Positions 1-58,876 of a stretch of 64,000 bases of DNA are shown piece by piece; within the stretch, counting starts at the first letter, position 1, and every line of letters starts with the position of its first letter. The notes beneath the pieces were generated by a model. That model was not told where the DNA came from and made no database searches. It worked only from the letters and a program-made list of their open reading frames with translations. This DNA is from Tetrapyrgos nigripes (lineage: Eukaryota; Basidiomycota; Agaricomycetes; Agaricales; Campanellaceae). The stretch spans positions 558,001 through 622,000 of the forward strand of contig JAACJM010000031.1 of NCBI GenBank assembly GCA_013368315.1, read 5' to 3'. A program made the position numbers and the translations under genes.

Positions 1-305
1 GTAGCCACGCTTGGAGATGGCCTCGTCCTCAGAGAGGGCGTAAACATGAGGGGCACGTTTAGCAATGGACTCGTCCTCAGAGAGAGCGTAGACGTGGGGA
101 GCGCGTTTGGAAACAGCCTCATCCTCAGAGAGGGCATAGACATGAGGGGTACGTTTGGAGATGCTCTCGTCCTCGGAAAGAGCGTAGACGTGAGGAGCAC
201 GTTTCGATACAGCCTCGTCCTCTGAGAGAGCGTATACGTGAGGTGCACGTTTGGCAACAGCCTCGTCTTCAGAGAGCGCGTAGACGTGAGGGACACGACC
301 TTCAA
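1..305 (-). repeat. 48-bp tandem repeat array encoding peptide cores
   Basis: Direct repeats of 48 bp, six complete and one cut by the window edge. They differ mostly at synonymous or conservative positions (A/T/V before Pro-His; A-V versus S-I before S/A-K-R). The protein-level core PHVYALSEDE is the same in all six, which points to purifying selection or homogenisation by unequal crossing-over. Confidence 0.9.
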
Positions 306-429
306 CTGTAGGTGAAAAAGAAGTCAGCCGATGAACGAAACATGCAGCAGTAATGTACTGACGAGGAGCAGCAGCGGTCAACTTGAAGAGGGCAATGGAA
401 AGGAGAATGGTCTGGAGTTTCAATTGCAT
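1..429 (-). CDS. Kex2-processed repeat peptide precursor 1 (dikaritin-type RiPP precursor), 3' end outside window
   Basis: Exons 363-429 and 305 down to the window edge; intron 306-362 (57 bp, GT-AG). The start ATG at 429 opens a 21-residue signal peptide (MQLKLQTILL then a hydrophobic run ending TAAAP). Exon 2 encodes six complete 16-residue (48-bp) units, PHVYALSEDE followed by A/S-V/I-S/A and the dibasic KR, with V, A or T before the Pro; a seventh unit starts at the edge. KR is a Kex2 site, so one protein would release many near-identical peptides. Repeats of this design after a signal peptide are the hallmark of ustiloxin/dikaritin precursors, whose Tyr-containing cores are crosslinked by UstYa-family enzymes such as those encoded downstream. 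The core YAL resembles the ustiloxin YAI. The mature product is not known; a linear secreted peptide (KEP family) is the alternative. Confidence 0.85.
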   Translation of the reverse strand, partial: MQLKLQTILLSIALFKLTAAAPRQYITAACFVHRLTSFSPTVEGRVPHVYALSEDEAVAKRAPHVYALSEDEAVSKRAPHVYALSEDESISKRTPHVYALSEDEAVSKRAPHVYALSEDESIAKRAPHVYALSEDEAISKRGY

Positions 430-1746
430 GATAATGAAGATGAAGTTGAGTGCGAAGTTCACGAGTAGCTCTGAGAGGAGTAGAGGAGAGGAAACTGTGT
501 TGGGCTTTCTGGCTGAGAAGGGTACACCTTTTATACTTCAAAAACCCGCACCTAACAGGTCAAAGGTAATAAGTGTACATGTGCTGAACTTGGTTGTGGC
601 GAGCAAAATGTTCTGCTCCGGCCCAATGGCCCCATGATTCCTATTGGTTAGCTGACTGGTGAAACGGCGAAGAGCAAAACGACTGAGTGTCGCATCATAG
701 AGAAGCGATGGAGCGCGCGTCGCATGAGCTACAAAAAAGATAGGGAGCGCCTTGGCGATGGGCTTGAATGCTTGTCAATACAGTGCCACAATTCTAACTG
801 GGAAGATAATCGTCAAATTGAGTAGATGCATTATTACTGATGATTGTCACTGACCTGGCAATATGTGGATCTGAAGAAGGTATGTATATCCATACCCCAC
901 AAACCAGTTCGTCAAAAATTTCCGGTGCGATTCGGTTTTATTCCCTACCTACATCGGAACACTTCCCGGACCCCCAGCGTATCAGCTCTTGGTCCTAGCC
1001 CGGGCAATAAATTCCTCCTCCTCCCTGCCAAGATTTGATCTAGGCGGTGAGGCAATATGGTCGGATCCAAGCGTGAGAGGTCAAGGCGGTAGTCTGTAAG
1101 GCTGAGTTTTCCGTTTTTCCGTACGCTGTTGCCCAGTGTCGCGCCCTCCAAATTTTTCGGATACAATGGCTGAGCCTTGAGGGTTGAGGTCCAGGCTCGG
1201 GTGGAACGATAGACGAAGATCGCAACGAATTTTTGGAGGTTGCGATTACCATACCGATGCAAACCCTTGTATCATATGGCACTTAGGGATGGAGAAAATT
1301 TTGTTGCACATTGGTCCCCGCTCGACCGCCTAAGGCTCGAAACGCTGTCGGAAAGGTCAGCAACTTCGAGCCAACAAGTTGAGACTCACCAAATTCGGCC
1401 AACCTGCCATGGATCTTATGGTTACCCTAACATGTAACATCTGACCCTGACAGTTAAGCGTTGGAGCGTTGACAGTGAACGAGAAACCGAGTCTGGCGGT
1501 GTATGGCCATTGCACCTCCTCATCCGATTTGCAACACCAACCAAGCTTGTCTACCCACTTGGTTAGATGTGTTATATCTGCCCGTGCTAAGTCCTAGACT
1601 GACAATAAACAACGGTCAAGAATTAAAACGTAGCATATTTGCAGCGAGACTGTGAATGAACCTTGTATACCTGGTACCAGAAGGAGTTAGCACAAACGTT
1701 AAGTAGAAAAAGATTAGTCTGAAAAGAAATACATCTTAATTTCCCA
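430..1746. promoter_or_regulatory. Intergenic region between divergent precursor 1 and methyltransferase genes
   Basis: These 1.3 kb separate the minus-strand precursor gene from the plus-strand methyltransferase and must hold both promoters. Only short ORFs without recognisable similarity are seen. No clear TATA box, repeat or RNA gene could be assigned. Confidence 0.5.
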
Positions 1747-3142
1747 ATGCCTCGCCGTATCGTACGCGTCCTGTTGCTGCTCATCGTAGTCGGTGGTATA
1801 GGATGGTATTTACCACGGTCTGGACCCATCTCTGTCAACCTCAACGTCAATGTTCCCCTTCCAGTCACTGTTCACGTCGACAACCCTTCAGCTCTTCCTT
1901 CATATCGACAACATGAATCCCAGCACGAAGTCCAAGAGGTCCAGGGGCTAGTCCCAGCATCCAGTCCACCTCAGAAGACATTGTCTTCGAAACAACTTTC
2001 CATCCTATCCTCAATAACCGCCTTTGCTCGCTATCTGGACAACGCTTTGGACAAGATTGCTATACGGGAAGAAAAGTTCAACTTGCTTCCAAAACACCAA
2101 AAGCCTCTTGCAGAGGCAGTCGGCTACGCTTCGCATTTCGAGGATGCACGTACTCGAGCTCGATTCAACGCCAAGTTCTTGGGCAACGTTGCAGATTATG
2201 CTCGCGAAACGTATGGTTTTGGACCAGAGGACGAGACGAACAAGGCTCATTGGGACTATGTCTTTGACTTTTTCGGGCATATCCTTAGGGATTGGAGTGA
2301 GGAGGGAAAACACGAGCGAGACACCGTCTTTCCTCCGATACTCAAGGCTTTGAAGGATGGCATGGCTGTGATCAAAGGAGAAAAGAGAGTTCTAGTCCCG
2401 GGCTTTGGTCTTGGACGACTTGCTCATGAAATCGCCAACGACAAGGGTATGTTCTGTCCACGTCTTCATAACCGAGTTTTATTCAATTCTTTGACTAGAC
2501 TACAAGGTTGACGCCTGTGAACTGGATTATGGCTCAGTCATCGCCTACAACTACCTCGTCAACCAAACCATCACTCCCTTTGAACACACACTCTATCCCT
2601 ATCTCACCAACTGGCAATACCAGGGAACCGCGAAAGGACGTTTCGACGCTGTTCGCTTCCCAGACGTCCTTCCTACCTCACCCGTCCACCTCATCGAAGG
2701 CGACTTCCTCACTGAATTTCCAGAGTCGGAGCAATACGATGCTATCGTTACCCTCTTCTTCATTGACGTCTCAGAAAATATCATCGACTTTTTGTCCAAT
2801 ATCCACCGTCTCTTGAAACCAGGTGGATTGTGGATTAACCTTGGTCGTGAGTCTAGCGTCTCTGCATTTCTATCATCGTTTTCACATGTTCTTTAGCGCT
2901 AAAATGGGGTTCATTCTCGCAAATGCAACTCTCCGCCGAGGAAGTCTTGGACCTCGCCGAGCGATTGGGCTTCACGGTTGACCATGACTCAAGACGGTCT
3001 ATTGACGCAGTCTATGGCCATCAAGTTGGGTCATTGCTCAAGTTTACTTATGGTGAGGATACTGTTTTACTGGCGAATGTACTCCGTTGTGACTATATAT
3101 GTTCTTGCAGTTACGCAGTTCTGGACTGCACACAAAAATTGA
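1747..3142 (+). CDS. Membrane-anchored carnosine N-methyltransferase-like (N2227 family) protein
   Basis: Exons 1747-2446, 2499-2846, 2897-3052 and 3111-3142 (GT-AG introns, frame kept) give about 411 residues. An N-terminal hydrophobic anchor (about residues 6-22) suggests a type II membrane protein facing the secretory lumen. The middle holds an S-adenosylmethionine motif, VLVPGFGLGRLAHEIA (about residues 218-233); the end has INLGPLKWG and FWTAHK, both characteristic of the N2227/CARNMT1 family. Known members N-methylate the imidazole of histidine in carnosine. It is transcribed divergently from precursor 1, whose repeats all contain an invariant Pro-His. Methylation of the core histidine is therefore an attractive inference, but unproved. 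The family assignment is strong; the substrate is open. Confidence 0.85.
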
Positions 3143-3506
3143 ACCGGGAACCCCATCGTACTTTAGCTTGTTATATTTGGTATTTTTACACGAGACTGTA
3201 CGTATATTTGCGATAATAGCAGCAATTATAATTCCTCAAGCTGAGAACGAGCACTTTTGGAAGGATTCGACGTCTTCAGGCGTACTCCCAGTAAATATCA
3301 ACACAAGGAACTTCTGTCTTACGTCCATTCGCCTGGTCAAGTTGGGCACAGTGCTTTTGGAACTATTCACAACTTCGAGTTTAATCACAGCCAGCCTAGT
3401 AGTCTAGGACTTGCAAGGCATGCTCAACTTTCTTCGACAGCCATGAAGTACTTGATTATACCGAAAGAAAACCTAAGTATGTACTACAAAGTCATCCATT
3501 CATCGC
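3143..3506. other. Intergenic, convergent 3' ends
   Basis: Short AT-richer stretch between the 3' ends of the methyltransferase and the copper-protein gene. Small ORFs here look like chance; nothing else is seen. Confidence 0.4.
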
Positions 3507-4242
3507 TCAGTACTCATCCGGCATAGGAATCAGAGTGTTGTTATTCCTCGCACACATTGCAGGGTGATCCTCCGACTTGACATCGTCGTCATCAACCATG
3601 TAGACGTCTGCACACTGAAAAGCAAACGAATTCTCTATCAATATCTCATCGTTCTTCGAAGGCGTTGAACACTTACATGGTACTCAACCACCTCACCACT
3701 CTCGGGATCGACAGCTTCGAACAAGAACATGCCATATTCTTTCTCTTCCAATGGTTTGGGCATCTGGATGTCGAAGCACAGCTGGCCTGTAGGCGAAATT
3801 GGGACGTCTGAGGCGATAGTTATGGGGAAGGCGTCGGGACTTTGAGCAGCGCGTGTATGTCCATAACGAACGGTGACTGATTTTGGATGCAGGTAAGTAT
3901 CGTGTCGAAAACGAAAGCCTACACTGTAACTCACCTAGATCACCAGGATGACCCGAGAAGGAGAGGAATGTCGTCTGATACGCTGCGAATGGTTGGGGGT
4001 TGCGGAATGGGATGCCTGTGTAAGTAATTATCGAAGCTCAGAGTGAGATTCAAATGACAGAATACACTGGAAGGCGTACCACACCACGGCTTGAAATCTG
4101 CTAGTGCAGAGCGAACCTCATCAGCTGGTCGACGTGTAGCCCATGGGTAGTGTACGCTGAACGAGGCGTGCGCAGATGTAGCAGTTTCGATGAGAGAGGC
4201 GAATAAACCGAGAAGGAGGACTTGTGCGTTGAAGATAATCAT
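3507..4242 (-). CDS. BIM1-like / X325 family secreted copper-binding protein
   Basis: Exons 4080-4242, 3935-4015, 3677-3876 and 3507-3614 give about 183 residues. A signal peptide starts MIIFNAQVLLLGLF and probably ends at TATSA, leaving a new N-terminal histidine, the copper-brace residue of this LPMO-related family. Family signatures follow in order: a Tyr-Pro near the start, WCG (about residue 55), a TTFLSFSGHPGDL strand, CFDIQMP, and the terminal CADV motif (exon 4). BIM1/X325 proteins bind copper and have been linked to copper uptake or cell-wall surface roles rather than sugar oxidation. No GPI signal is evident; the protein ends soon after an Asn-rich CARNNNT segment. Its place among histidine-rich UstYa-like genes may be coincidental or may supply copper. 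Confidence 0.75.
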
Positions 4243-5048
4243 CGTTCGAGGCTTTGGACTTGAGAGACTCAGAGTGAGAAGAGAGTCGGGGGACGAAATT
4301 GGGTGGTAAAAGATGGAAGGCTCCTCCTGAGGTTGAGTACACCCTGTAACACTGCGATGATTGGTTCGAATAAACGGGGTTCGGATATCAGCAAAAAAGA
4401 AAATTATGTAGATCTGTGGTCCAGAACCTCTGTTGCATTCGATGCATCGTTTTGAAAGGCTCGGGAACCCGGAAAACTTGCGGAATTGTAGAATGCATGC
4501 TTGGAAGGTCAAGCCAAATCCGGATTCCACATGGATGATGGGCGCAGGGTCCAGGGCCAAGCGCAGTGGCTTCGTTGATAGTAGCCTGTAGGAAGGCGGG
4601 ACCGCAAAAATCGGGAAGCTTTTCCGAGCCGGATACACTTACTAAGCCTCTTTTTCCAATTCACTTGAACGCTGTATTACATAGATCTAGGTGGAGAGCA
4701 GAGGTTTTACCTTTCATTTTGGCGAGGAGTTCAATTATTGATATTGACTATTGTCAGGTCGAGCCAGCTTGCACGTCTCCAAGACCTTTCAAGACTTCAA
4801 CGTAACGCACGCGAGCTCTAGCGAGCTCTTGGCAATCCCATTAGTATAGGATCGGGGGACGAATTGAAGATATGTATCACATCTTCGAAGTATGTTATCC
4901 CCTAAATAGTATTCGAGTAGATCAGATCTACCGCTACCTGCCCGAATGAATTTCTTCCGATGACCGCTGAATTCTGCTCGCATGGTCAGAAAAATCTGCA
5001 CTTCAACTACTCTTCCCAGCTTGCCCCCGACTCCAACTAGCCTCCATC
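4243..5048. promoter_or_regulatory. Divergent intergenic region between the copper-protein gene and UstYa-like gene 1
   Basis: About 0.8 kb carrying the promoters of two divergent genes. An open frame runs upstream of the copper-protein ATG but contains no domain. A GCGAGCTCTAGCGAGCTC duplication lies near 4810-4828. No further signal is assigned. Confidence 0.4.
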
Positions 5049-5875
5049 ATGTCTTCAGTACTCTCCAAGCTCAATATCGCTCACGCCTCCTACATCGTTG
5101 CAGCTGTAACGCTGGGTCTATCTCTCCTCGGGAACTTGTTTGCACTGGTCTACCAATCAGACATCATCTTTGGGCTTACCGCTCACAAATACAGTACGTT
5201 ATTCCTCCCCAGTTTGACTGACGAGTACTCAAGATTAGTATAGCATACATTGAGGGTGATCACCCTCGACATTTGCCACTTACGGTCGGGCCAGCAAACA
5301 TGGTGTTCAAGAGCAATTTGGGTCATTTCGGTCTTGGGAACGACCCCGTTACCTGGGCCGAATGGAGTACCATGCGTCCTCGTGAAGCTGGTTATGTCTA
5401 CCTTGGTCAAACACACCTTCCGATCGACGTCTCGATGTGGCATCAAGTTCATTGCCTCAGTCACATCCGTTCCCTCATTTCTAAAGGCGACGACGGTTCC
5501 GAACACACTGAACATTGGTTAGCTTTAAATTTTACTATTCTTTGATAACTAAGGGTTAAGTTTTTTTTTAGCTTCCACTATCTTCGACAGGGTATCCTAT
5601 GCAATGCAGATCCGACGTTGGAACCGAGATCGAGGCAGAGTTTTGATCTGAATGGGAAGGAGATCTTTCCCGGGGATGAGGTCACGCATACGTGCAAAGA
5701 CTTTCAGTACATTTACGAGTGGACGATGAAGCATAGGGAAGGCTGGTCGCAGGAAGAAGTGGATAGGTTCCTATCGGTTGGGCAGATGAAGCATCATGGT
5801 GGTGGGAACGGTACGATGGAACATGGAGGAATGCATGGTGGCATGCACGGGGGAGGAATGCACGGCGGGATGTAG
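5049..5875 (+). CDS. UstYa/DUF3328-like oxidase 1 with His/Met-rich tail
   Basis: Exons 5049-5193, 5244-5517 and 5572-5875, about 240 residues. One N-terminal transmembrane segment (about residues 14-36) is followed by the two DUF3328 signatures: HQVHCLSHIR and EHTEHC-FHYLRQGILC (the second interrupted by intron 2 inside the Cys codon), then HTCKDF near the C-terminus. UstYa-family proteins act on Tyr-containing RiPP cores in the secretory pathway, catalysing ether crosslinks or other oxidations. The C-terminus is unusual: after residue 212 it becomes a His/Gly/Met-rich tail with repeated HGGM units, which could bind copper. Intron 1 falls at the same phase and position as in the other family members here. 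Confidence 0.85.
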
Positions 5876-6192
5876 AGTTCGTCGGTAGATTTAGTGAACA
5901 ACTCCTGATATTGAGCTTTTCAAGAACTTTTCTATGAATTTCTCCGAAAGTCATAACGCCGTTGCTTGGAACGACGAGTATATATATACTTGCTCGAAGC
6001 ACGTAAGTCTACGAATGTGACTTTGTATCTTAATGTTAAAGCAGATGTTGGTCATACGCATGGACTTGAAGAAAAGCGCATTGTTATTAAGTATTCTACT
6101 GGCGTAAGCTTTTCACGATTCAATGATGTAGACATAGATAATGTATTTATTCAGACGAAGTACTTGTACTAATACCCAAAACATCTGCCCAA
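5876..6192. other. Intergenic, convergent 3' ends
   Basis: 3' flanks of UstYa-like gene 1 and the unknown membrane-protein gene. No gene or repeat recognised. Confidence 0.4.
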
Positions 6193-7123
6193 TCAAGGCA
6201 CCTGCCTGAGCAACTCGAATCCTATTGTGAAGCATCCAATCAGCTCGGTACTCAAAATCAGAGCGAGAATCAAAGTTACCCATGTTAGGATGAACATCCT
6301 TTATCTGGCTGAAGCTAACCTGACAGTCCACCCTCACACACCTGAACTCCACGACCAAAAACTTGTCCTGACTGGGACATCTAAACTTCTCCGTCGTCGC
6401 ATTCGCCAATGAGCTCTTCAAGTCGAGCGTGCCAAGAAGTTCGCCTCGAACGGGTCGAGTACCCCACGACACAGCATCAAAGTCGAGATCGAACGCTGAA
6501 TCGTGGATGATGGACCAGATTTCGATCTCGGAGATATCGCCCTTGGTCGTAAGGTCCTGCACGCGAGTCTCAACGGGACCCTTCCAGCCGACGGCGCATG
6601 ATTGGTCAGCGGATCCTTCAGGGACGGTGAATCTCATGAGAGTCGAGTCCTTGATGGCAATAGAGATAATAATGAGAAAGGGTGAGATGACTGAGAGTAT
6701 GAGGAAACTCACTCTGACGGAAACGAAGACCTCAAGAGAATTGCCATACACGGTGTTCTTGAGTCCCTCGTTGATCCTTGCGATATGTGTTGGCCAAGAA
6801 TGGATATAGGGACGGGGAAGTGTGTCATGCAGGAGCTTCTCGATACGACTGAAGCCTATGTGAAGATCGGGATAGGGCAATTTTGCGAGTGCAGCTTCCG
6901 AAAGCTCGTAGTGAAGGATAGTCTTTGGGAGGAGGACTAGGTTGACGAGGGACAGGAGGGCGACAAGGACAGATGTCCACAAGAGGTATTGGGGTAGACG
7001 AGCTTTGGGACGTGGAACGAGAGTAGGACTGCCAACAGGAGAGTCGACGTCCTCGGAAGAACCACCATCTTGGTGAGTGGCGAGAGGGACGTATTCTGAG
7101 GAGTCCTTTCTTGACCCGTACAT
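6193..7123 (-). CDS. Unknown single-pass membrane protein (copy 1, intact)
   Basis: Exons 6713-7123, 6280-6649 and 6193-6221, introns of 63 and 58 bp, about 269 residues. The exon model is supported by an identical structure and the same C-terminal exon (FELLRQVP) in the copy at 22382-23375. A polar N-terminus of about 45 residues (MYGSRKDSSEYVPLATH) precedes one membrane segment (WTSVLVALLSLVNLVLL). The ectodomain has YPDLHIGF and WPTHIARIN motifs, a Cys-Val-Gly-Trp region, and a beta-rich end with FRCVRVDCQVSFSQ. I do not recognise the family. It is transcribed divergently from UstYa-like gene 2, and the same divergent pair is duplicated at 21.3-23.4 kb, so the two proteins may act together. 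Confidence 0.75.
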
Positions 7124-7550
7124 AGTGTCGAATGGATGGGCAGCGGGTGAAGAAGTTGAGGTGGTGGTGGTGGGTGAAGAAAGGAAGACAGAGTTAGCTT
7201 CGTCGTGCTTTGTGAAATGGTCGAGTGTCAAGAATAAGAAAGAGAACATGTTCAAGTGACGGTACACAACCGGGGTTATGCTAAATGACCGTCCGATGCG
7301 AAAAGGTGAGCAGCGAGAACCGCCAAGCTGAAGTGATACCAATCAACGACCTGTATGGTCAATAGAAACGGCGGCTTGGACCGATAAGGACAATGGTTCG
7401 TAAAAAGTTGAACCAATTCGGACCAGGCTACGCGATGTTGAGAAGTAATATCTGAACAGCAATCCAAATTGGAACACACCTTGAGGTTGGTAAAAAGTAA
7501 AAGCAATCCAGTTTTCCTAAGAGCCATCCCCGTCTTTGTGTCCAGCACCT
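7124..7550. promoter_or_regulatory. Divergent promoter region, unknown membrane protein / UstYa-like 2
   Basis: A 427-bp region shared by two divergent genes; its counterpart in the duplicated block is 22048-22381. No specific element identified. Confidence 0.45.
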
Positions 7551-8296
7551 ATGTCTTTCCTCAATCGTCTACCAAAGCTCGGTCGTCCACCTCCGTTCGT
7601 GATTTTCGGGGCGGTACTTGGTCTTTCTCTACTCCTCAACCTGGTGGCAATAGTTAAACAACTAGGGCTCTTGACACCGTCGTCGAGGTCGTATTGTAAG
7701 TTGTCGTTTCCTCCGAGTCCTGACAAAAGACCTTCCGTTGACGGGATCCAACACTTGCAGCCTACATAGGACACGACCATCCTCGAGAGGCCCCTATCAA
7801 ACTTCGCACTGTCAACCTTGCCTTGTCCGACGACCTTGAGCACTACTTCCTCGAGGGTCGTCGAGCTGTAGCTGAGTGGAACGCTCTCCATCCAGAAGGT
7901 CAGGGAAGCGTCTACCTTGGCGACTCCACCCACGTCAACGGCGAGCTACAGGCTCCATACCACATTTCCATGTTCCACCAACTCCAATGTCTCAATCATC
8001 TTCGATCCACTTTTATTTGGGGCAACGACGAGCCTGATAGAACCGAGCATTGCACGATGTATCTGCTCCAAGGTATCATGTGTTTCTCGGATACGACGCT
8101 AGAGGAAGGAGGAGTTGGAGCCAAAAAGGCAGATGGAAGTGTCATTGCACCGGCGAACAACAACACGCATACTTGCAGAGATTGGAGCCAGGTATACGAT
8201 TTTGCTGCTGAAAATAGGAAAGGATGGACAGACGAACAGATTGAATTGGAAGCTGAGCTTTCAAGGGGGACATTGATGGCTGACTTTATTAGATGA
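7551..8296 (+). CDS. UstYa/DUF3328-like protein 2
   Basis: Exons 7551-7695 and 7761-8296, about 226 residues. Membrane segment at about residues 17-36. The first family motif reads MFHQLQCLNHLR, so the usual second His of HxxHC is Gln. The second motif, RTEHCTMYLLQGIMC, keeps His-Cys, and HTCRDW follows near the C-terminus. Intron 1 sits after codon 48 in phase 1, exactly as in UstYa-like gene 1. The C-terminal segment after HTC (FAAENRKGWTDEQIELEAEL) is acidic and helical. Expected role: oxidation or crosslinking of a peptide core in the secretory pathway. The His-to-Gln change could mean a specialised or weakened active site. Confidence 0.82.
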
Positions 8297-9067: not shown

Positions 9068-10051
9068 ATGAACAACAAAGAAGACTATGCGCGACTTCCT
9101 GAAGAAACCGACAGCTTCCTTCACGGCGATGAACCCACCGTCAAGGCTGAAAAGCCTCGTTTCAAACGTCCTCTTTGGCTCCTTCTCGCTATAGGATACT
9201 TTGCAGTCATGGTCGTCCATGTCTCCATATTCTGCTACCAAATCCGTCAGTCAGTTCTTCCAAAGGTCTTCAAGCCGCATTACAGTATGTTCTTCATCTT
9301 CATCATATCACTGATCTGACCTCCCACTAACTCTACCCATCTTGTTAGCCTACATCGACGGAGACTGGCCACAGGAGCTCGTCATACCCGGATCATACGG
9401 CAGCATGAACCCGATTCAGACTGGCTTCAACGACACGCCGCAATTTGTGGATATCTTCTCTCCCGATGCCCACGCTCACTGGGAGTCTATCCTACCCCCT
9501 GGTGGTCGTGGTTACATCAAGCTTGGAGGACACAAGGAGCTCTTTGGTATCACCATGTACCACCAGCTTCATTGTCTCGTCCGACTTCGTGCTGTCAGTA
9601 TTACTCACTTTCATTTCATCTCGCTATCTCATGGCTAGCAACCCAGGTCATCGCTGGTGAAAAGGAAGACATGGGTCACGTCAAGCATTGTTTCGTAAGT
9701 CTTACTCCCAATGATGATAACCGCTCCAAATACTAATCATCGCTGGATAAATCCCTTTTCAGAACTACCTTCGTCAGGTAAGGTCAAGGTAGTGCTCGCT
9801 CTCATGACTCCTCGATTGAGTTTCTTCATCAGGGCATCGTTTGCAATGCCGACATCACCCTGGAACCTGGCAAGACCGTACACACCAAAGGTCCCGATGG
9901 CAACATGGAGTCCATGGTCAAGGGTGGATATGACGTGCAGCATCAGTGTCGCAACGCTGCTCCAGTCTGGAACTATCTGAACGAGAAGTGGGCACAGGAT
10001 TTCCCCAATCATGATCCTATGGGTCATGCCACCGAGTATGGTGAAGCATAG
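9068..10051 (+). CDS. UstYa/DUF3328-like oxidase 3
   Basis: Exons 9068-9284, 9349-9593, 9647-9694, 9763-9777 and 9833-10051, about 247 residues. Exon 4 is a 15-nt micro-exon coding NYLRQ, needed to complete the family motif. A cytosolic N-terminus (DYARLPEETDSFLHG) precedes a membrane segment (about residues 37-58). The motifs are complete: MYHQLHCLVRLR, then GHVKHCF-NYLRQ-GIVCNADITLE, and HQCRN before a conserved PVWNYLNEKW. It is a close paralog of the next gene (same exon structure and lengths) and of the relic at 20582-20797. Likely a membrane-bound RiPP-tailoring oxidase. Confidence 0.88.
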
Positions 10052-11690: not shown

Positions 11691-12637
11691 ATGAGCGGCA
11701 AAGGAGACTATGCACGACTCCCCGAAGAAACCGACAGCTTCCTTCACGGCGACGAACCCACTGTCAAGCGCCCTCTTTGGTTTCTTATCGCCATAGGTTA
11801 CCTTGCTATGACAGTCGTCAATGTCTCCATATTTTGCTATCAAATCCGTCATTCCATCCTTCCAAAGATATTCAAGCCGCATTACAGTACGTCTTTCATC
11901 GTTGTGATCCGTCTGACTGTTGACTGACTGTACCGATTTCGTTAGCCTATGTCAACGGAGACTGGCCTCAGGAGCTCATCGTACCCGATAAATATGGTAG
12001 CATGAACGAAATCACGACTCAATTTAACGACAGTGCACAGTGGGAGGATATTCTCTCTCCTGATGCTCGTGCGCTATGGGAGACTACCCTTCCGCCCAAA
12101 GGTCGTGGTTACCTCAAGCTGGGAGGACACAAGGAGCTCTTCGGTGTTACCATGTACCACCAACTTCACTGCCTCGTCCGTCTTCGTGCTGTCAGTACAC
12201 TTCACCATTCTACCCTTCTGCATATCTGATGGATTTATTGCAGGTTATTGCTGGTGAGAATGAAGACATGGGCCATGTCAAGCACTGCTTCGTAAGTCTA
12301 TTCCGCACTATGATTGTCGACATGCATACTGATTGATGCATCCATACTAGAACTATCTTCGCCAGGTGAGAACGACATTCTTTAAATGAACAACGCTGAC
12401 CTACTACCTATTCCTCAGGGCATCCTTTACACCGCCGACATTACCCTCGAAGATGGCCGGAGTACCACTGAAAAAGGTCCTTTGGGCGAAACGAAGTCGG
12501 TGGTCCGCAGTGGATACGATGTTGAGCACAAATGTCGTGATTCTACGCCTGTCTGGAACTACCTGAACGAGAAATGGATGCAGGACTTTCCCGTGCATGA
12601 TATCATGGACCATGCTGCTGAGTATGGTCAAGCTTGA
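11691..12637 (+). CDS. UstYa/DUF3328-like oxidase 4 (tandem paralog of 3)
   Basis: Exons 11691-11886, 11946-12190, 12244-12291, 12351-12365 (15-nt micro-exon, NYLRQ) and 12419-12637, about 240 residues. Exons 2-5 have the same lengths as in the gene at 9068. The N-terminus DYARLPEETDSFLHG is shared; it lacks the seven-residue basic insert before the membrane segment. Motifs MYHQLHCLVRLR and GHVKHCF-NYLRQ are intact. The Cys that follows in the paralog (GIVCNAD) is Tyr here (GILYTAD), so one family cysteine is lost. HKCRD is present near the end. Confidence 0.86.
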
Positions 12638-14748: not shown

Positions 14749-15997
14749 ATGCCTAGAGCACTCAAGGTCCGTCTGAGGTTACTTCTCTTGAGTCGACGTT
14801 TCTGACACGCATCTAGGAATTGAAGCGTGAAGCCAAAGATTCCAATTGTAGCGTGAGTGGTAGCTTCTTTCTCATTGATTTAATTCTAACCTGCATCTTA
14901 GAAATGGATCTGTCGAATTGAAGGTTGTACGAGGAAACAGCCCTTTACCCGTCCACAAGACCTAGAGCGCCATCACAACGCCGTACATCTTAATATGTGA
15001 GGCCTTCAACTATTTCGTCGTTGTACACGCTCAAATCTTGCATGCCACTCTCCTGTAGTAAATTCAAATGCGATATCTGTGGCCACCCGACTGGACAAAA
15101 GGTAAATCTTGCGAATCATAGAAGGACGCAGTGAGTATTATTTTTATCTTTCATTCTCTTGAAGCTGACGTTCTTTTGGATCCATCAAGTCCTGGAGTAG
15201 AACAGCTCAAATGCCACTATCCCGACTGCCCCTTCGAAGCGGCCAGCACGACTATGATGCACAATCATCAGAAGAAATGTCACGGTCATCGACCCCGGCA
15301 GAGGAAGCAAACGCCAAGGCAGGAGAAACCAGCCGTTCCAGGAATATCGGTCTCCTCCATCCTACCTTTCCATTCCCTTCCGGTAGCAGCAACCAACATT
15401 ACAACTGCCCACAATACAGTAGTCATCGCTTTACGTCCCAGCGAGCCTGTCGCACCTGGTACATCTTTCCTTCCGGTAACCACAATCAATAATGATAGCG
15501 CTTCTAATTCTCTCCAACCTCAACCTCAAGTCTCCGTGAACCATCACCAGCTCCCGCCTCCCTCTTCCTTGGAAAATTACGCTGAAGTCCCCGAAAATGT
15601 GGCTCGTTCTGCGTCACAGTACATGTGTTCGGACAGACAGTCTTCTGCTCTGCTCTCCAGGCCCTCTCCACCGTACAGTCCCACTGTTCACACACTCATG
15701 GCAAGTTTAAGGATACAGGGCTCGGTCGCAAGTACACGGCACGATAACCATGAAGGATACCTCTATGCACTACCTCCACCTCCTCCCGCTCCTGCTATGA
15801 TGAATGTAACATTCCCTGCATATGGATCTCAAGAAGCTCATCCGCCATTTCCCTATTCCATGTACACTGGGCACGCTATGGCACCAGCTCCCCAATTTGT
15901 CACGCCTTTTGTCGCGACTGACACGAATAACGTAGTGGAATATAATCACGCCAAGCTTCCTACTTCCCATCCCAATGTTTATTATCCAATCTTGTGA
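14749..15997 (+). CDS. C2H2 zinc-finger protein 1 (possible regulator)
   Basis: Exons 14749-14766, 14817-14852, 14902-14996, 15059-15130 and 15190-15997 give about 342 residues. The N-terminal third carries three C2H2 fingers: CRIEGCTRKQPFTRPQDLER with HHNAVH, then CDICGHPTGQKVNLANHRRTH, then CHYPDCPFEAASTTMMHNHQ. The rest is a long Pro/Ser-rich, low-complexity region (PPPPPAPAMM) typical of fungal activation domains. It lies between UstYa-like genes and precursors 2 and 3, so it could be a cluster regulator, though that rests on position only. Splicing is supported because introns fall between or inside fingers and restore them. Confidence 0.75.
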
Positions 15998-16592
15998 TGG
16001 AGGATGGGAATCGGGACGACCCAGTTCGTGGATGCCATGACTGGGGGACCCGCTAGCCTTCTTCTGGGAGAGCCTGAATGCATGAACCGATTCAACACCA
16101 TGCCCTCTAATGCGACCTGATCATGTTTTGGACCTATTGCCCTCATTGTTCTGAATCCCTTCTACGATTTACGTGTTCTTTCTCTCTTAATATTCACTGC
16201 AAGTAGTTCCATCAGACTCCTGCTCTGTACGGATAATCCAATCTCGGAACTTTGGACTTTCTAACTAGATGTACTATTTGGGACTTTATTTGGGACATTT
16301 ATACTTATCTCTACATTATGTATCAACTATTGTGGACTTCAGCCTGATGTATCATTCTTTCACATTTGCATCAATCGTACCATCTACACACATACTCTTT
16401 GTAATATTTACACTCTTGCCTTTCAATACCACCACGTTTTCCTCGTTTTAACCTTCAAATGTCAAGGGACTTCAGCAATTGCATTATCAGTAAAGTACGT
16501 CCAACACAACGATCCTCAGTCCTCGCTAACTCGTTTGCCAGAGCCCACTTTAGCGACGTCGAGCCAGTACATAAATATGTGGATTGGCGGTG
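15998..16592. other. Intergenic, convergent 3' ends
   Basis: AT-rich 3' flanks of the zinc-finger gene and precursor 2. Nothing further seen. Confidence 0.4.
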
Positions 16593-16872
16593 TCACTTGG
16601 ACGGAGCGCCCTTGCTCTCAATAATCGCCAGCTCATCCTCAATGATTGTGTAGGTGTGAGGGACACGTTTGGAGAGCGATTCGTCCTCGATGATCTTGTA
16701 GGTGTGAGGGACACGCTTGGAAAAGGACTCCTCTTCGTCGACGGTACGAGCTTCCTCAGCAACTAGCTTAGACTATCAGTGATAGAATTGGGGTGCAACA
16801 GAGGTACTACTCACGAGGAACTGCAACAATCATGAAGGCAACGGAAAGAAGGACAAGGACTTTGAATTGCAT
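16593..16872 (-). CDS. Kex2-processed peptide precursor 2 (two cores)
   Basis: Exons 16815-16872 and 16593-16762; intron 16763-16814 (52 bp). About 74 residues. Signal peptide MQFKVLVLLSVAFMIVAVP, with the intron in phase 1 right after it, as in precursor 1. The mature part has an acidic spacer ending SFSKR, then the core VPHTYKIIEDESLSKR, then a second core VPHTYTIIEDE that is not followed by KR but by a short tail ending APSK. Both cores keep Pro-His-x-Tyr. It is small, and its frame appears only after splicing, which is why such genes are easily missed. Confidence 0.8.
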
Positions 16873-17123
16873 GTCGAATTAATATGACGGTGAAGTCAAA
16901 GATAGTTGAAGGTCGTGACGAGTATAAGAGTGAGGTAGAGGTAGAAGCTGGGGTGGTTGAGACAAAAAACCTCTGCTTTTATGCGCCAAATTATAGGGCA
17001 CAGGTACTGGCAAGCAGGCGATGAACACCGATTCTCCCCAAAACAACCCCAAAATCTTTGAGTACTACTATTGGTCTGTCAGTCATGATTTGATTAGTGA
17101 TCAACGGAGAGCAGGTAAACGTA

Positions 17124-17730
17124 CTAACCACATACAGTAATACCGCCATCGTATTCCTTCGCCGTTTGGTGGATCAATGCTTCAAGCTTTAAGTCTTTTA
17201 AGCTTTCCCCAAGAGTAAAAAATGGATAACCCAAGACGTTAATGGCCTGCGGAACGTCTGTTTGACCTGTTGCAGTATATTCATGACAAGAGCCTTCACG
17301 CCGCTGACATAGCTTGGATAAGGAACAAGTTAATGGGCGAGGCAGCGAGGAGAATGGGGCCGTATCAGCAGTGGACAAACTTTTAACTCCGCGATCCGCC
17401 GTGTACGTGTGCGGGTCGGAGCGCTTGTGAAGAGCCTCCCTCTTATCAAGGCCGTATATATGAGAGGCGCGCTTGGAAGCCGCTAACTCCTCCTCAAAGA
17501 GGGAGTATCGGTGAGGGTCACGCTTGGCGAGAGACTCGTCTTCAATGATCTCGTAGATGTGAGGACCACGCTTGCTGAGGGGCTCGTCTTCGTTGAGGGA
17601 ACGAGCTTCCTCAGCGACTAGAGATATACTGTCAACGATAGAGTGTAGAATGACCGGAATATGACTCACGAGGGACAGTGGCAGCAACCATGAGTGCGAT
17701 GGAAAAAACAAAAAAGATGCTCAACTGTAT
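17124..17730 (-). CDS. Kex2-processed peptide precursor 3, four different cores; canonical ATG replaced by ATA
   Basis: Exons 17670-17730 and 17124-17617; intron 17618-17669 (52 bp) at the same position and phase as in precursors 1 and 2. About 184 codons. Exon 1 aligns with the other signal peptides, but its first codon is ATA, not ATG; the only in-frame Met is seven codons from the exon end, too late for a signal peptide. After AEEARSLNEDEPLSKR come four diverged cores: GPHIYEIIEDE, DPHRYSLFEEE, ASHIYGLDKRE and SDPHTYTADRG, the first three followed by KR sites. A long C-terminal extension (about 85 residues) of unknown nature follows; it may contain an unrecognised intron. It could be a decaying precursor or could start from an upstream exon I cannot see. 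Confidence 0.65.
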
Positions 17731-19087
17731 GTTGAGATATGGGGCTTGATGGCTGGGGGAAAAGTAATAATCGTCAACCTTTATACCCAGAGTTTGTGCT
17801 CCAAGTACTGAGCAAGCGGCTCGTTTTCGTCTGACACTCCAGGTCGTCTGATTTAGTCTGCTATATTATAGTCATGGCCAGTTTCAGTAAACCGAGCTGC
17901 TTCCTTAGAAAACCTTTTCTTTTCGGCCATCTCAGTGCTTCTTGATAAGGAACGAGCCGAAGGGTGCGACCTCTACTGACTGGCGTATGACTCGTTGGCA
18001 TTGGACTTCGAATCATTGATTCACCGCTCGGTAACTTGTAGGCTGCCTTCCATCGAAGCTTCCTGCGACATTTCCGGTGGCTTCTAGTAGAGACACAAGG
18101 GCAGAGGAAGAAATATGTGGAGTCTGGTTCGTCGATGACTGGGTGTCCAAGGAATTTAATCGGAGTCTTCACGGGTTTTTGTGGGCTCTTCGGTGGCTTT
18201 CCAGTGGATGACTTTTCAGTCGTCGATAAGAAGATGAGTAATCGGTGTATTCCAAGACCCAGACTTGACTGCGAGCTCAGATGAGGCAATGGACATGGTT
18301 AGGACTCTGGATGGTGGTGGTTTGGAAGAGCAGTGCATATGCCATCTTTCCCACGATGTGGCGTCTACACCACTGGCGCGTTAATGGATCGAAGTGAAAA
18401 CCCAACCACGACCCTAGGCCTCCTCCTGTAAATTAAAAGTCTAAATCGCATATGATTCTATCTTCCAAATGACAGAAGATGAAAAGCTGAAGAAAAGTTC
18501 AAGGATATTCATCAATTATAATAGAGACAGGTTTGCGATATGCTTGACTCGTTGATAACTTGATCATGAAGAGGTTGACGGTCATGGCCAACGCTCAACG
18601 ATGATTACATAGTAGAAAAGATGGATTATGATACACTATATGGCACGTATAGGTAATAATACAATGGTGCATAATCGTATAGCACTTCTTGTCTTTGTAC
18701 CACCATCATCTCTAGAGTGGCACCGGCTCAAACACAAAACTACGATGTCGAGATACACTAGAACAGTACGAAAGCCCACTGATTGGAGCAAAAGATGAGA
18801 AAAGTGCATAGGTAATTATTGAGAGATTAAGATAAGCGAGGATGATCGTGAACACTTGACACTGATAGCAAATCGGCGAGCATAGAAAACCAGAACGGCA
18901 CGAGAGCGCAATGAGAGCAAAAGATGAGAAAAGTGCATAGGTAATCAAGAGAGATTGAGATGGGCGAGGTAGAGCATAGGTAGTGCATAATAAGATCTGT
19001 GGTGCATAATTGTGATGGCAAACCGGTGAGCATAAGGAAATCAGAACCGCAACGAGAGGAAAAGCTGAGAAAAGTGCATAGGTGTTT
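17731..19087. other. Intergenic; contains a doubtful ORF and tandem repeats
   Basis: A 142-codon open frame (17861-18289, minus, Lys/Pro/Arg-rich, with CPC near its middle) lacks a good ATG or a recognisable domain; I do not call it a gene. Tandem repeats derived from the zinc-finger 3' end begin near 18776 and are listed separately. Confidence 0.35.
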
Positions 19088-19120
19088 TTAAGAGATATCG
19101 AGATGGGCGAGGTCGAGCAT
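18776..19120. repeat. Three diverged tandem copies of the zinc-finger 2 gene 3' end
   Basis: The segment containing GAGAAAAGTGCATAGG occurs at about 18795, 18923 and 19067 (spacings of about 128 and 144 bp), each with related flanks (AGAGAT..AGAT.GGCGAGG, CGGTGAGCATA). The third copy overlaps the stop codon of the zinc-finger gene at 19088, so the others look like duplications of that gene's end. Confidence 0.6.
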
Positions 19121-19626
19121 AATAGTATCTGTATCATCTTGACGAAGGCTGCGAGAAGTAAAGTCATGTTCTTTTCGCATGTGTCGAATCAAACTGGCTG
19201 CGCAAATGGTTCCAAACGTGCAGTAAGTGCATTCACTATGCATAGTACGTAAAAAATGTCAGCGAATGGATCATGAAGGACTCTGTAGATAGATAGGCTG
19301 CACTCACTGGCGAATGTTGGTGTGCTTTGCGATGTGCTTGAGTAGATTGGTTCTTTGGGTGAACCGTTCACTGCAATGAGGGCAGCAGTGGACTTGGGTG
19401 GCACTGAAGCGGAAGGTTGAGAGTCGTGCACCGATGTAGACTTCGACACAGCACTCACCGTGATTTCACCCCATGACGGTCTCGGATATGCCGCTCTAGA
19501 GAACTGCGAGTCGGGAAGACTTTGCTGTGGATCTCACAAAGGAATTCCTGCGAGAGGGCGTCAAAAAGCTACGAGAAACAAATAGATGATTCTGCAGCTT
19601 ACTTTATTGGAAGAAGCTCTGGGCAT
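19088..19626 (-). CDS. Small C2H2 zinc-finger protein 2
   Basis: Exons 19603-19626, 19459-19547, 19308-19403 and 19088-19235, introns 55, 55 and 72 bp, about 118 residues, starting MPRASSNK (compare MPRALK in zinc-finger 1). Fingers: a first with a C-x2-H variant (CEIHSKVFPTRSSLERHIRD then RHG), a second HCCPHCSERFTQRTNLLKHI, and a third CTYCTFGTICAASLIRHMRK. The splice choice at 19404 is supported because it restores the Cys pair of finger 2. The protein ends soon after finger 3. Likely DNA-binding. Intron 1 could be placed differently. Confidence 0.6.
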
Positions 19627-20581
19627 TTTGAGACTTGAGTTTGGCGCAAGCAGCCCCGATGGGGTGTGGGCAGTGGACGTGGTTGAGGTGAAGGAAGGTT
19701 CTGACAAACGAATAAATCTCCGTGGTTTCTTTATAGGCGTGGGCGACTCCGCCTTCGGCACTCATATCGGCACCTGTTCCTCTGATGCTTTTTGTTACCC
19801 TTGTTTATCCTCCATCCAATCTTCTCGAAATGCAGATTAAAGGAATTTTCATTGGACTCGGGGCCGTGATGTTCCATCTGATAACCCTCAGAAGCCCTCA
19901 GAACGAGTCAATCAAACCGAGAACAAGGAGACCCATATATGGAACAATGGTCGTCTAGTCCATCAAACAGAGAACAAGAGCAGACCCATATATGGGAACA
20001 ATGGTCGTCAGTCTGCAGATGTTTATCGCTACTGTATAGACCTATATATGGGAACAATGGCCGTCAGTCAGATTTTTATCGCGAGATAGATGATAAAACT
20101 CACCCTGTTCTTACTCGAGCTTACTGATAGGGTTTCCTCCCGGATCACCAATAGAAGAATCTTTCTCCGGGGCCCTTTCATCAGATGACAAGTTGCTGTT
20201 GGTTTGCTGTCTTCATCGGTTCCGAAGGTCGTAAGGACAGGAACATGTCTCAGATCCACGAGTCCCTTTGTTCTTTATCTTTCAAGTCGAATAGGTTCAT
20301 CAGGGTTCATCCAACGGAGGTTTGGTATAGGGCCTTGGCCGTAATGAGGAACACCTGCACGACGACTCGGAAGGTGTCGACAACCAAGGTTTTGGGCAAC
20401 TTCCGAGTCGTTTGAAGTCTTCTGAAGTTCTTGAGTAAAAGGTCCGACTGAATCCGAAACAATCATAGGATTTTCAATGCTGTAAACGAAAGAGACATTA
20501 AGTGAAATTAATAACTACAAGGATACAACCGGCCCAACTTCCCGTGTAGTGGTAAGCTCGTTCCTTCAGGCCTTCGGCGCC
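19627..20581. other. Intergenic with short tandem repeats
   Basis: No gene supported. A 63-codon open frame at 20275-20466 (minus) might be an exon but has no recognisable features. Repeats at 19925-20075 are listed separately. Confidence 0.35.
19925..20075. repeat. Three tandem copies of a CATATATGG-containing unit
   Basis: ATATATGG(G)AACAATGGTCGTC occurs near 19933, 19991 and 20042 (third copy with GGCCGTC), spaced about 51-58 bp. Each unit begins with the ATATAT palindrome and is followed by CAGTC-type sequence. Function unknown. Confidence 0.6.
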
Positions 20582-20797
20582 CTAGGCCTCGCCATACTCA
20601 CTAGCATGAGCCATGGGATCATGGTCAGGGAAATCTTCCGCCCATTTCTTGTTCAAATAGTTCCAGACGGGAGTAGCGTCCCAGCGTCTGTGCTGAACGT
20701 CGTATCCGCCAGCGAAAATGTTATGCATTTCGCCGTCAGGGACTTTCTTGTTTATGGTCCTGCCAGGCTCCAGAGTGATGTCGGCGTTGCAGTTATG
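20582..20797 (-). pseudogene. UstYa/DUF3328-like relic (last exon only)
   Basis: The minus strand reads NCNADITLEPGRTI, then GGYDVQHRRWDATPVWNYLN, and ends HASEYGEA with a TAG at 20582. This matches the last exon of the gene at 9068. The His-x-Cys of that exon has become HRRW and no upstream exons are found, so it is a fragment. Its orientation relative to the next gene mirrors the 7.5-10 kb region. Confidence 0.75.
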
Positions 20798-21321
20798 ATA
20801 AAGAGGAGTGGTCTCAGAGGCTGACCTGGTCAGATATCGCCAGACTCTAGCGGTTGTTCTGCGGGCAATTCAGGAACCTAAACTGAAGATTGAGAGCTCG
20901 AGTTTGTAGCAAAAGTTCCAGTAGTTGATTTCCATTCTATCGAGTCGGGGGGTTGGTACCAATAACAAGAGTTGCCAATAATACACACGATGAAACGCAA
21001 AATTCTGTTTTCTTGAGCCAGGTTAGAGGTGGATGCATGAGACCATCGTTGCAGAGTTGGTCGTAAACGCGTAAACAAGTGTCGACCATTGCGACTCGAC
21101 CCGCCTTCAGCTTGGACCACAACCATATGCATCACAACCTTACGATTTCAGCTCCCTCTAGAGATCTATAAGAGCCCAAACAACTGTTACTGATGTTCCA
21201 CCAATGATGCCCAAAACTATCAGATAATTGCAAGCGTCTCGAAGTACATTCGTCGAATATTAAAAACTTGCACGCGATCGCTCTTCTTCCATCACCACCA
21301 CCTAAAAAAATTGCCAACCCC
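20798..21321. other. Intergenic
   Basis: No feature recognised; small minus-strand ORFs look like chance. It separates the UstYa relic from the degenerate UstYa-like copy and corresponds to 8297-9067 in the original block. Confidence 0.35.
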
Positions 21322-22047
21322 TCATCTAATAAAGCCAGCCAGCAATGTCCCCCTTGAAAGCTCAGCTTCCAACTCAATCTGTTCATCTGTCCATCCTTTC
21401 CTGTTTTCAGCTACAAAGTCATACAATTGGTTCCAATCTCTGCATATATGCGTGTTGTTCGCCAGCGCAGTGACACGTCCATCTGCCCGTTTCGCTCCGA
21501 CTCCACCTTCCTCAAGTGTTGTGTCCGCGAAGCACATAAAAGCTTGGAGAAGATAGTTGACACAGTACCCTGTTCTCGCAGGTTGGTCGTTGCCGTAAAG
21601 CCGAAGATGGTTGAGGCATTGGAGTTGGTGAAACATGGAAATGTGGTACAGAGTCTGCAACTCTCCATTGACGCGTGCTGACTCTCCGAGGTAGATGCTT
21701 CCCTGGCCTTCTGGGTGAAGTGCGTTCCATTCAGCTACGGACTGACTGCCCTCGAGAAAGTAATGCTCCGGATCGTCAAACATAGCGAGGTTGACAGTGC
21801 GAAGCTTGATGGATGCTTCACGAGGGTGGTCGTGTCCAACGTAGGCTGTAAAATACACGTTGACTCCATCTTCAGCGTAGTTCAAGAAGGCAACGGACTG
21901 GTACCCACTATACGACCTCGTCGATGGTACCAAGAGCGATATTTGCTTGAAAATTGTCACTAGATTGAGCAATAGGGAGAGTCCAAGGATAATACAAAGG
22001 GCGACGGACGCAGCTGGGAGCTTTGGCAGGTACTTGGGGTTATGCGT
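21322..22047 (-). pseudogene. UstYa/DUF3328-like copy, degenerate (paralog of gene at 7551)
   Basis: Exons 21909-22047 and 21322-21845, intron 63 bp. It aligns end to end with the protein at 7551-8296 (LPKL, membrane segment, SVAEWNALHPEGQG, WTDEQIELEAELSRGTL). The codon where that gene has ATG is ACG, and an in-frame stop lies a little upstream. The first motif is HQLQC and the second has decayed from RTEHC to RTGYC, so both metal-type motifs are compromised. The intron is 3n long, so the frame reads through. Probably non-functional, though the frame is otherwise open. Confidence 0.75.
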
Positions 22048-22381
22048 GGTTGCGAATGCAAAGTCTGGGGCATCCAAGGAACCAGGTTTTTAGTTAGGTT
22101 GAGCAGACTTCCATTTTCTGTGTCTCTCTTTCTGATTCGACGCATATCATCTGCAGACCACCGACACCAGATATCAATCTAGCGTTTAGCTATACTCTTT
22201 CTCTTAAACTTCGGATTCCGAGTTTCCCAGTGTCCTTCACCGCTACCCACTCATTTCCGCATATCCGTGCACTCGTTTGCCTTTCCGAGCGTAGAACCGT
22301 TCAAAGGCACCTCGCACTCGCACTCATCCTAGAACCATCTTCAAATCATCTCTTTCCTACTGCTCAACCCCAAGCTCCAGC
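22048..22381. promoter_or_regulatory. Divergent promoter region of the duplicated pair
   Basis: Counterpart of 7124-7550 in the inverted duplicate. No element identified. Confidence 0.35.
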
Positions 22382-23375
22382 ATGTACAGGTCGCACAAGG
22401 ATGAATCCTCAGAATACGTCCCTCTTGCAATGCACCAAGATGGTGATTCCGGTGAAGACGTCGACTACTGCCTTCATCGCCTTATTCCAGTCTCAGAACC
22501 ACCTGCGATAACTCGTCCTTCACCATACGTCTTCTGGACTTCCGTCCTCATCGCGCTCTTATCCCTCGTCAACCTCATTCTCATTTCCAAGACTATCTTG
22601 CACTATCAGGTATCAGACGCCGCACTCGATGCGCTGCCGTACCCGGATTTGCATGTAGGCTTCAATCGTATCGAGAAGCTTCTGCATAACACCTTGCCTC
22701 GGGCTTACATTCATGTTTGGCCGACGCATATTGCGAGGATTAATCAAGGCTTGAAGAACGCGGTATATGGGAGTTTTTACGAAGTTTTTATTTCTGTAAA
22801 GGTGAGTTTCTGGCCGCTCTCATATTATCTTTTCGCTCATAGTTTTCGATGTGGTACTAATACTACTAGGACTCGACAATCATGAAATTCCTCGTCCCAG
22901 ATGGCTCCGCCGACCAACTCTGCACCATCAGCTAGAAAGGCCCCATCGAAACTCGCAAACAAGACCTCGTCACCAAAGGCGATATCTCTGAAATCGAAGT
23001 TTGGTCTATCATCTCACCTGCTGTTGCTGCTTCTGCCAGTGTATCCTGCGAGTCGGTTGGTCAAAGTGATTTGGATAATTTGGACTTTGATACGATGTCT
23101 TGGAATAACCGACCTGTTCGTGGAGAGCTTCTCGGGACATTGGATTTGCAGAGTGGTCAGGGGCTGTTGAATGCGACGACGGAGAAGTTTGCGTGTCCTA
23201 GAAGAAATAAACATTTAGTGGTGGAGTTGAGGTGTATCAGGGTAGATTGTCAGGTCAGCTTCAGTCGGATTATGGATGTGCATCCGAGTATGGGTGAGTG
23301 TTTTGTTGTAGACAGTGGTTGGATAAAGAGTTGATTGTTTCAACAGGCTTTGAGCTCCTCAGGCAGGTGCCTTGA
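22382..23375 (+). pseudogene. Unknown single-pass membrane protein, copy 2, with in-frame stop
   Basis: Exons 22382-22801, 22870-23293 and 23347-23375, same structure as the intact copy at 6193-7123 (SSEYVPLA, YPDLHVGFNRIEKLLHNTLP, GDISEIE, RPVRGELLGTLDL, FELLRQVP). A TAG at 22933-22935 replaces the Trp codon of the paralog (GWKGP there), breaking the protein near residue 162. The rest of the frame is open, so the lesion is probably recent. A Ser/Ala/Val-rich stretch after the WSII motif is longer than in copy 1. Confidence 0.8.
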
Positions 23376-43778: not shown

Positions 43779-44104
43779 ACAGCTTTGAACAATGAGCGAC
43801 TAAGGTTGCTTGGAGAATGGGGGAGGGTATAAGAGGAGCAGTGGAAAGTACGCGAACACGTGACAGATCACGTTTTGTTAAATTAAAAAAAAAGCTCGGT
43901 CCTATAGTGTTGGGGAAAAAACTTGAGTTATTTACCAAAGCACTTTTTTACCGGTAATTTACGGGTAAATTACTGGTCAATAAGATGGCCTTCAGAAGAG
44001 GGAGTAATTTACCAAGGGCCAAGTAGTCACGTGTAGTACCTTTCCAAGAATCTGAAAAATTTTTCAATGAGCCGTCGTCGTGTAACACAGACTCCTACAA
44101 CTGA

Positions 44105-56103: not shown

Positions 56104-56150
56104 CCATTCTCAATAAATTGTTGCTGCGCTGCTGATACAGTAACGATCCT

Positions 56151-58691: not shown

Positions 58692-58876
58692 GGGGCTTTT
58701 GAGCAGTTTCGAGCACAGTTTGAGCGTTTGACAGTATGACGAGGCGTAAAAAATGAAGTCACGTGTTTAGGTAATTTACCGTAAATTACTGGTAAAAAAG
58801 GTCCCTTCCTTCCCGCCTCTGGTAAATTACTGGTCAGAAAGTCTGGACGAGTTTTTTCCCCAACACTACGGTCCTA

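Follow-up and report, generated by a model that had tools for sequence, protein, structure and literature searches.

A dikaritin-like peptide locus with a putative histidine methyltransferase in Tetrapyrgos nigripes

UstYa proteins are required for the cyclisation of the dikaritins, namely ustiloxins, asperipin-2a and phomopsins (PMC7329392). In the maturation of a Coprinopsis cinerea precursor in Pichia, Kex2 and Kex1 cut at dibasic sites and STE13 removed X-P or X-A dipeptides (PMC9769878). Here we describe a locus of the basidiomycete Tetrapyrgos nigripes in a window of 64,000 nucleotides, which is positions 558001-622000 of the 631,795-base contig JAACJM010000031.1 (C31) in a genome of 98.5 Mb and 587 contigs. 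Like the dikaritin loci, it combines signal-peptide precursors, whose repeated Tyr-bearing cores are bounded by dibasic sites, with several UstYa/DUF3328 genes nearby. We consider it probable that the locus encodes a dikaritin-like peptide that is matured by Kex2 and UstYa proteins and N-methylated on a conserved histidine.

Repeat precursors and UstYa genes

The window holds two apparently intact precursor genes (A and B; Table 1). A third, C, is probably decayed on the evidence of its sequence, because inspection by eye showed no ATG upstream of its signal-like stretch, so that two of the three secreted precursors proposed in a sequence-only reading stand. Precursor A runs from window position 429 on the (-) strand leftward past the window edge on C31 and encodes 423 aa with 24 PHxY copies, most of its units being APHVYALSEDEAVSKR or NPHVYALSEDEAVSKR. 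Precursor C retains four KR-(x)xHxY segments. Related genes were found on contig C68 (two precursors, with 13 and 5 PHxY copies) and contig C93 (one precursor, 26 copies). Precursor C aside, the five precursors share a short first exon (MQLK... or MQFK...) for a signal-like stretch, judged by eye, and an identical intron position.

The repeated cores of these secreted-type precursors are separated by Kex2-type dibasic sites (KR or RR). In the five precursors, xPHxY opens 69 of the 73 segments that follow such a site, the exceptions being GYDFSEDDEFVG, VPQCFLC, SPYGLDDVD and LPHKTVN. The core therefore conserves a Tyr, which is a candidate site for a ring cross-link, and places X-P, the STE13 signature, next to the cleavage site. 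Conversely, a dibasic site precedes 69 of the 70 PHxY copies, the exception being the first copy in precursor A, which has a single Arg before it. The residue before Pro is V in 47 copies, A in 13, N in 9 and T in 1. The codons of the 70 copies vary (His, CAC 43 and CAT 27; Tyr, TAC 51 and TAT 19; Pro, CCT 50, CCC 17 and CCG 3). Since the remainder of the unit is locus-specific (ALSEDEAVS, GPDAVEALS, GLAKEEVVD, KIIEDESLS), xPHxY is its constant part. Y-x-I-I is present in precursors B and C only, and the corresponding residues are YALS in A, YGPD on C68 and YGLA on C93.

A chance origin of the repeats was rejected on genome-wide pattern counts. With a loose DNA pattern, built on [KRHQNS]-R-x-P-H-x-Y and a following RRN codon, 83 matches were obtained in the 98.5 Mb, compared to 32 for the reversed pattern used as the control. 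Inside precursor genes lay 62 of the 83 (C31, 2; C68, 19; C87, 17; C93, 24), and the remaining 21 were scattered. A still looser pattern, whose places were listed in part, gave 140 matches compared to 119 for the control. The precursor runs found in this way all lie near UstYa genes, with the sole exception of a contig end, C87:1-2600, which repeats the C68 precursors and is perhaps the other haplotype of C68.

The four intact UstYa/DUF3328-like genes of the sequence-only reading model cleanly, with PF11807 scores of 61.4-71.2 bits (cut-off 25), and the two decayed ones it listed fit a fragment and a frame on the (-) strand. By sequence, the UstYa products are type II membrane proteins. Its KR-punctuated repeats with a shared His-x-Tyr core are borne out by the counts above. 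Precursors and DUF3328 genes co-occur at all three loci (3/3) within the T. nigripes genome, which gives good support to a dikaritin-like pathway; its product may be Tyr-crosslinked and cyclic, as that reading proposed. The spliced models of the methyltransferase, UstYa1 and precursor B are letter-identical to annotated proteins (Table 1), and the C93 methyltransferase model matches the annotated protein P0002, so these gene models rest on independent annotation. The C-terminal tail of UstYa1, MKHHGGGNGTMEHGGMHGGMHGGGMHGGM (window about 5780-5875), is rich in His and Met and has a metal-binding appearance. At the first UstYa motif, HQLQC replaces HxxHC both in UstYa2 and in the copy at 21325-22089.

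A CARNMT1/N2227 methyltransferase in a shared cassette

The membrane-anchored methyltransferase noted earlier was confirmed and, by its sequence, is a member of the CARNMT1/N2227 family, which methylates the histidine ring. The sequence-only reading had assigned it to no family and mentioned neither the BIM1-like and But2-like proteins nor the X-P signature. PF07942 scored above its cut-off, and the protein has the CARNMT1 fold; the gene has four exons (1747-2446, 2499-2846, 2897-3052 and 3111-3142). Compared with human CARNMT1, a carnosine and zinc-finger histidine N1-methyltransferase, the enzyme has 28-29% identity over the fold, carries an N-terminal membrane anchor and lacks the stretch around H347. 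In the alignment, both the imidazole-binding Asp and the S-adenosylmethionine Glu are kept, and the relatives by sequence with solved structures are all carnosine imidazole methyltransferases. The anchor as a peculiarity of this enzyme was rejected, as the protein on C25 and other fungal N2227 proteins are anchored too. Because basic residues precede the anchor, the enzyme is probably lumenal.

A membrane-anchored fungal histidine methyltransferase that acts on secreted proteins in the endoplasmic reticulum (ER) is known from Aspergillus nidulans (NHMT; PMC10349129), so this chemistry is possible in that compartment. NHMT differs from the cluster enzyme in its seven transmembrane segments, its spermidine-synthase-like domain and its substrates, which are lytic polysaccharide monooxygenases (LPMOs) and X325 proteins (PMC10349129). 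We rejected the cluster enzyme as the LPMO His1 methyltransferase, since NHMT has already been shown to act there (PMC10349129).

N2227 matches in the genome were found on C25 (two), on C20 and at the three PHxY loci. The enzyme is thus present at 3/3 of these loci and on no other contig bearing a UstYa match. UstYa matches lie on 13 contigs, the flanks having been examined on 8 of these, and UstYa1 as the query added a further contig, C84. C31, C68 and C93 share the order precursor, N2227 methyltransferase, BIM1-like, UstYa1, But2-like and UstYa2, and the relative orientations agree. UstYa3 is present at C31 and C93, and none was seen in the 20 kb examined at C68. The C93 cassette contains a tyrosinase gene between BIM1-like and UstYa1 (about C93:113947-115370), of which one piece matched PF00264 with 43.8 bits (cut-off 22.6) and another piece matched weakly; there was no tyrosinase match on C31 or C68. 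At the other UstYa sites examined, which lie away from the cassette (C337, C1, C421, C172, C341 and C93:28-48k), tblastn (E <= 1e-4) gave no match to the N2227, BIM1-like or But2-like proteins.

Within the genome, the But2-like protein was found at the three cassette loci alone, with a second, decayed copy in the window. Two near-identical extra BIM1-like copies are present at C31:624005-624821 and C38:34814-35629, the former with no cassette gene in the surrounding 9.8 kb, and the BIM1-like gene as cassette-specific was rejected on account of these copies. A second kind of precursor, Tyr-bearing and reading SVFGVAADYELD...KR, adjoins UstYa genes on C421 (9325-9687 (-) of excerpt L014). Its units contain no His and C421 has no N2227 gene, so that this one case would, by sequence, be consistent with a connection of N2227 to His.

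The pair formed by UstYa1 and the enzyme was then compared in other fungi, using named rows of the best 120 of 847 enzyme relatives and of 65 UstYa1 relatives. Among the matches listed, the cluster portion of the enzyme relatives comprised 57 species and the UstYa1 relatives 36; 22 species occurred in both. For 17 of the 22 (T. nigripes and 16 further fungi, ascomycetes included), the pair lies on contigs of equal size, and we conclude that it is common to ascomycetes and basidiomycetes. The other 41 named N2227 species among the matches listed had no species or contig size in common with the UstYa1 list. The locus-tag distance between the enzyme and UstYa1 is 1 in T. nigripes, 2 in Cordyceps militaris, Penicillium psychrosexuale, P. 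expansum, Coniothyrium and Didymosphaeria, and 3 in Stygiomarasmius. The tag pairs at a distance of 2 are A9K55_001987/001989 in C. militaris, N7518_007247/007245 in P. psychrosexuale, N7453_011589/011591 in P. expansum, ACN47E_002197/002195 in Coniothyrium glycines and N0V89_004759/004757 in Didymosphaeria variabile. In an enzyme tree of 52 rows, a 100/99 branch separates the 17 linked rows, together with 24 others, from 11 rows that include C25.

Proposed maturation and competing explanations

The peptide is very probably matured by UstYa proteins. In the proposed pathway, Kex2 and Kex1 would cut the precursor in the Golgi, and STE13 would take off the X-P dipeptide to leave His as the N-terminus (H-x-Y-...), a trimming step that we favor only slightly. 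UstYa proteins would then oxidatively cross-link the Tyr, possibly to His or to the residue two positions after the Tyr (I or L in A, B and C93), and the CARNMT1-type enzyme in the same lumen would methylate the imidazole of the conserved His, which is the probable site of the methyl group. DUF3328 enzymes use copper. As an association with copper transport has been described for BIM1/X325 proteins (PMC10952591), a BIM1-like protein would suit oxidases with His motifs. Candidate peptide substrates of the methyltransferase are VPHEYGPDAVEALS and HEYGPDAVEALS. The calculated [M+H]+ of the unit HVYALSEDEAVS is 1319.611 (1333.627 with CH2 added, 1317.596 with 2H removed and 1331.611 with both), and that of HEYGPDAVEALS is 1287.585 (1301.601, 1285.570 and 1299.585, respectively); the released cores may be shorter than these units.

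Several observations weigh against this reading. Because the imidazole-binding Asp is conserved throughout the N2227 family, its presence is no proof of this His as the substrate, and the Dendrothele copy has Tyr in its place. N1 specificity in CARNMT1 is set by H347, whose equivalent lies within the stretch missing from the cluster enzyme. Structure prediction for UstYa1 gave no usable fold. In 5 of the 22 shared species (Aspergillus alliaceus, A. sclerotiicarbonarius, A. turcosus, Clathrospora elynae and Dacryopinax primogenitus), the pair lies on different contigs, and in Hohenbuehelia its members are 36 tags apart. A profile search for precursors in other species (7996 candidates scored) matched only precursor B, and no product of PHxY precursors is known. 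Furthermore, according to Le Marquer et al. (PMC6339444), the STE13 signature is absent from the precursors of ascomycete cyclic tetrapeptides and epichloecyclins; the PHxY precursors therefore combine both patterns, and their peptides may be linear.

Among the alternatives, the one that survives best, which we still regard as unlikely, places the methyl group on the N-terminal amine of the peptide and explains the conservation of His by a role in cross-linking or copper binding. The known N-methyltransferases of the dikaritins (ustiloxin and phomopsin) target the amino group (PMC12048977), an N-terminal His exposed by X-P removal would bring the amine close to the imidazole, and the N1-locking H347 is missing from the cluster enzyme. 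However, the exclusive match to carnosine imidazole methyltransferases among solved relatives and an imidazole-binding Asp shared by 49 of 50 relatives argue for the ring of the conserved His.

It is less likely again that the products are linear, STE13-trimmed, hormone-like peptides and that the neighboring UstYa and methyltransferase genes serve another substrate. This explanation would account for the frequency of X-P after the cleavage site (69 of 73 segments); agaricomycete precursors that give linear STE13-trimmed peptides have been described (PMC9769878), and Le Marquer et al. tie the STE13 signature to hormone-like peptides (PMC6339444). Yet the precursor, UstYa1, UstYa2 and the enzyme keep one order at three loci, and the only pattern-found precursor run away from UstYa genes is the C87 contig end, which repeats C68. 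Methylation of the N-terminal His of the BIM1-like neighbor, with the peptide cross-linked only, is very improbable: the gene adjoins that of the enzyme, its product would expose HASF... after the signal-like stretch at three loci, and X325 proteins bear a methylated His1 (PMC10349129), but A. nidulans uses a different enzyme there, the seven-transmembrane ER NHMT (PMC10349129), and no N2227 gene was found in the 9.8 kb examined around the C31:624k copy or on C38.

If His methylation of the UstYa-matured peptide is true, methylation of a histidine ring within the secretory pathway would be a tailoring step of fungal UstYa peptides for which we found no report in the open-licence PMC literature. 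The UstYa1 and N2227 pair could then locate such clusters across Dikarya without knowledge of the precursor, and membrane-anchored fungal N2227 proteins would gain a candidate substrate class. An orphan repeat-precursor neighborhood is thereby turned into predictions by mass (+14.016, -2.016 or both). More speculatively, and with low confidence, the locus may represent an undescribed class of UstYa peptides that is widespread among ascomycetes and basidiomycetes and defined by the lumenal CARNMT1-type enzyme. In this class, the N-terminal His exposed by STE13 would be ring-methylated, and UstYa oxidases, supplied with copper via the BIM1-like protein, would link Tyr to His or a neighbor to give a small, copper-binding methyl-His-brace peptide.

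Other features of the window and relation to known systems

Table 1. Genes and gene remnants of the peptide locus, in window coordinates
Feature	Position	Strand	Description
Precursor A	1..429	(-)	signal-like exon 1, followed by 16-residue units xPHVYALSEDEAVSKR
CARNMT1/N2227 methyltransferase	1747..3142	(+)	411 aa; N-terminal membrane anchor; PF07942 194.5 bits; identical to D9758_009349
BIM1-like (X325-type) secreted copper protein	3507..4242	(-)	183 aa; PF20238 27.5 bits
UstYa1	5049..5875	(+)	240 aa; HxxHC motif present twice; tail rich in His and Met; identical to D9758_009350
But2-like type II membrane protein	6193..7123	(-)	269 aa
UstYa2	7551..8296	(+)	226 aa; first motif HQLQC, not HxxHC
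UstYa3	9068..10051	(+)	247 aa; five exons; C93 has counterpart
UstYa4	11691..12637	(+)	240 aa, encoded by five exons; sister to UstYa3
C2H2-type gene	14749..15997	(+)	by eye
Precursor B	16593..16872	(-)	75 aa; two units VPHTY[K/T]II...; identical to D9758_009356
Precursor C	about 17127..17720	(-)	four degenerate units; probably decayed
UstYa3-like 3' fragment	20585..20791	(-)	decayed
UstYa2-like frame	21325..22089	(-)	without clear start; probably decayed
But2-like second copy	22382..23372	(+)	in-frame stops; decayed

The BIM1-like assignment is barely above the PF20238 cut-off of 27 bits. His is the first residue after the signal-like stretch, with an SA-HASF start at three loci (cleavage site placed by eye). 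The But2-like protein scored 21.8 bits with PF09792, below the cut-off of 24.2, and the two But2-like genes as UstYa genes were rejected by the family profile search. The long exon frame of the C2H2 gene had no match at the other UstYa loci examined, so this gene is at most a candidate cassette member.

Farther along the window, a HET-domain protein with a DUF6699 domain is encoded at 25424-27235 (-). Several copies of a chromodomain-type long terminal repeat retroelement lie on both strands at 29393-52372, where the frame 34851-38966 contains protease, reverse transcriptase, RNase H, integrase and chromo domains. A DDE_1 transposase frame is present at 53864-55126 (+). Positions 56104-61758 form a perfect palindrome (arms of 2,823 nt, 100% complementarity, 9 nt spacer), with inverted copies (98-99%) on either side at 43905-45624 and 61754-63475; the structure is either a mobile element or an assembly fold-back.

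In the survey of Umemura 2020, DUF3328 genes lie near 103 of 1680 basidiomycete KEX2-processed repeat proteins (KEPs). Its Tyr-bearing KEP type G-5/P-1 is near DUF3328 genes in 16 of 35 cases, and 13 of its 19 genera are also present in our enzyme or UstYa1 lists (among the matches listed, with Leptosphaeria counted via Plenodomus). Given these shared genera, precursors of this type may be on record already, with no function assigned; that the G-5/P-1 repeat is identical to PHxY is a guess. The word 'methyltransferase' is absent from the main text of Umemura 2020, and no report joining N2227/CARNMT1 to UstYa or to ribosomally synthesized and post-translationally modified peptides was found in the open-licence PMC literature. 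UstYa peptides are a known kind, and the N2227 link is new as far as that literature shows.

The C93 tyrosinase recalls ustiloxin and phomopsin, which need one, whereas C31 and C68 have no such match. Unlike the dikaritins, the T. nigripes precursors are built on a PHxY unit rather than on YxIx alone, although B and C do read Y-x-I-I; the YxIx core belongs to the ustiloxin/phomopsin branch and not to asperipin-2a. The X-P signature, the N2227 enzyme, and the BIM1-like and But2-like neighbors further distinguish the T. nigripes cluster from the dikaritins.

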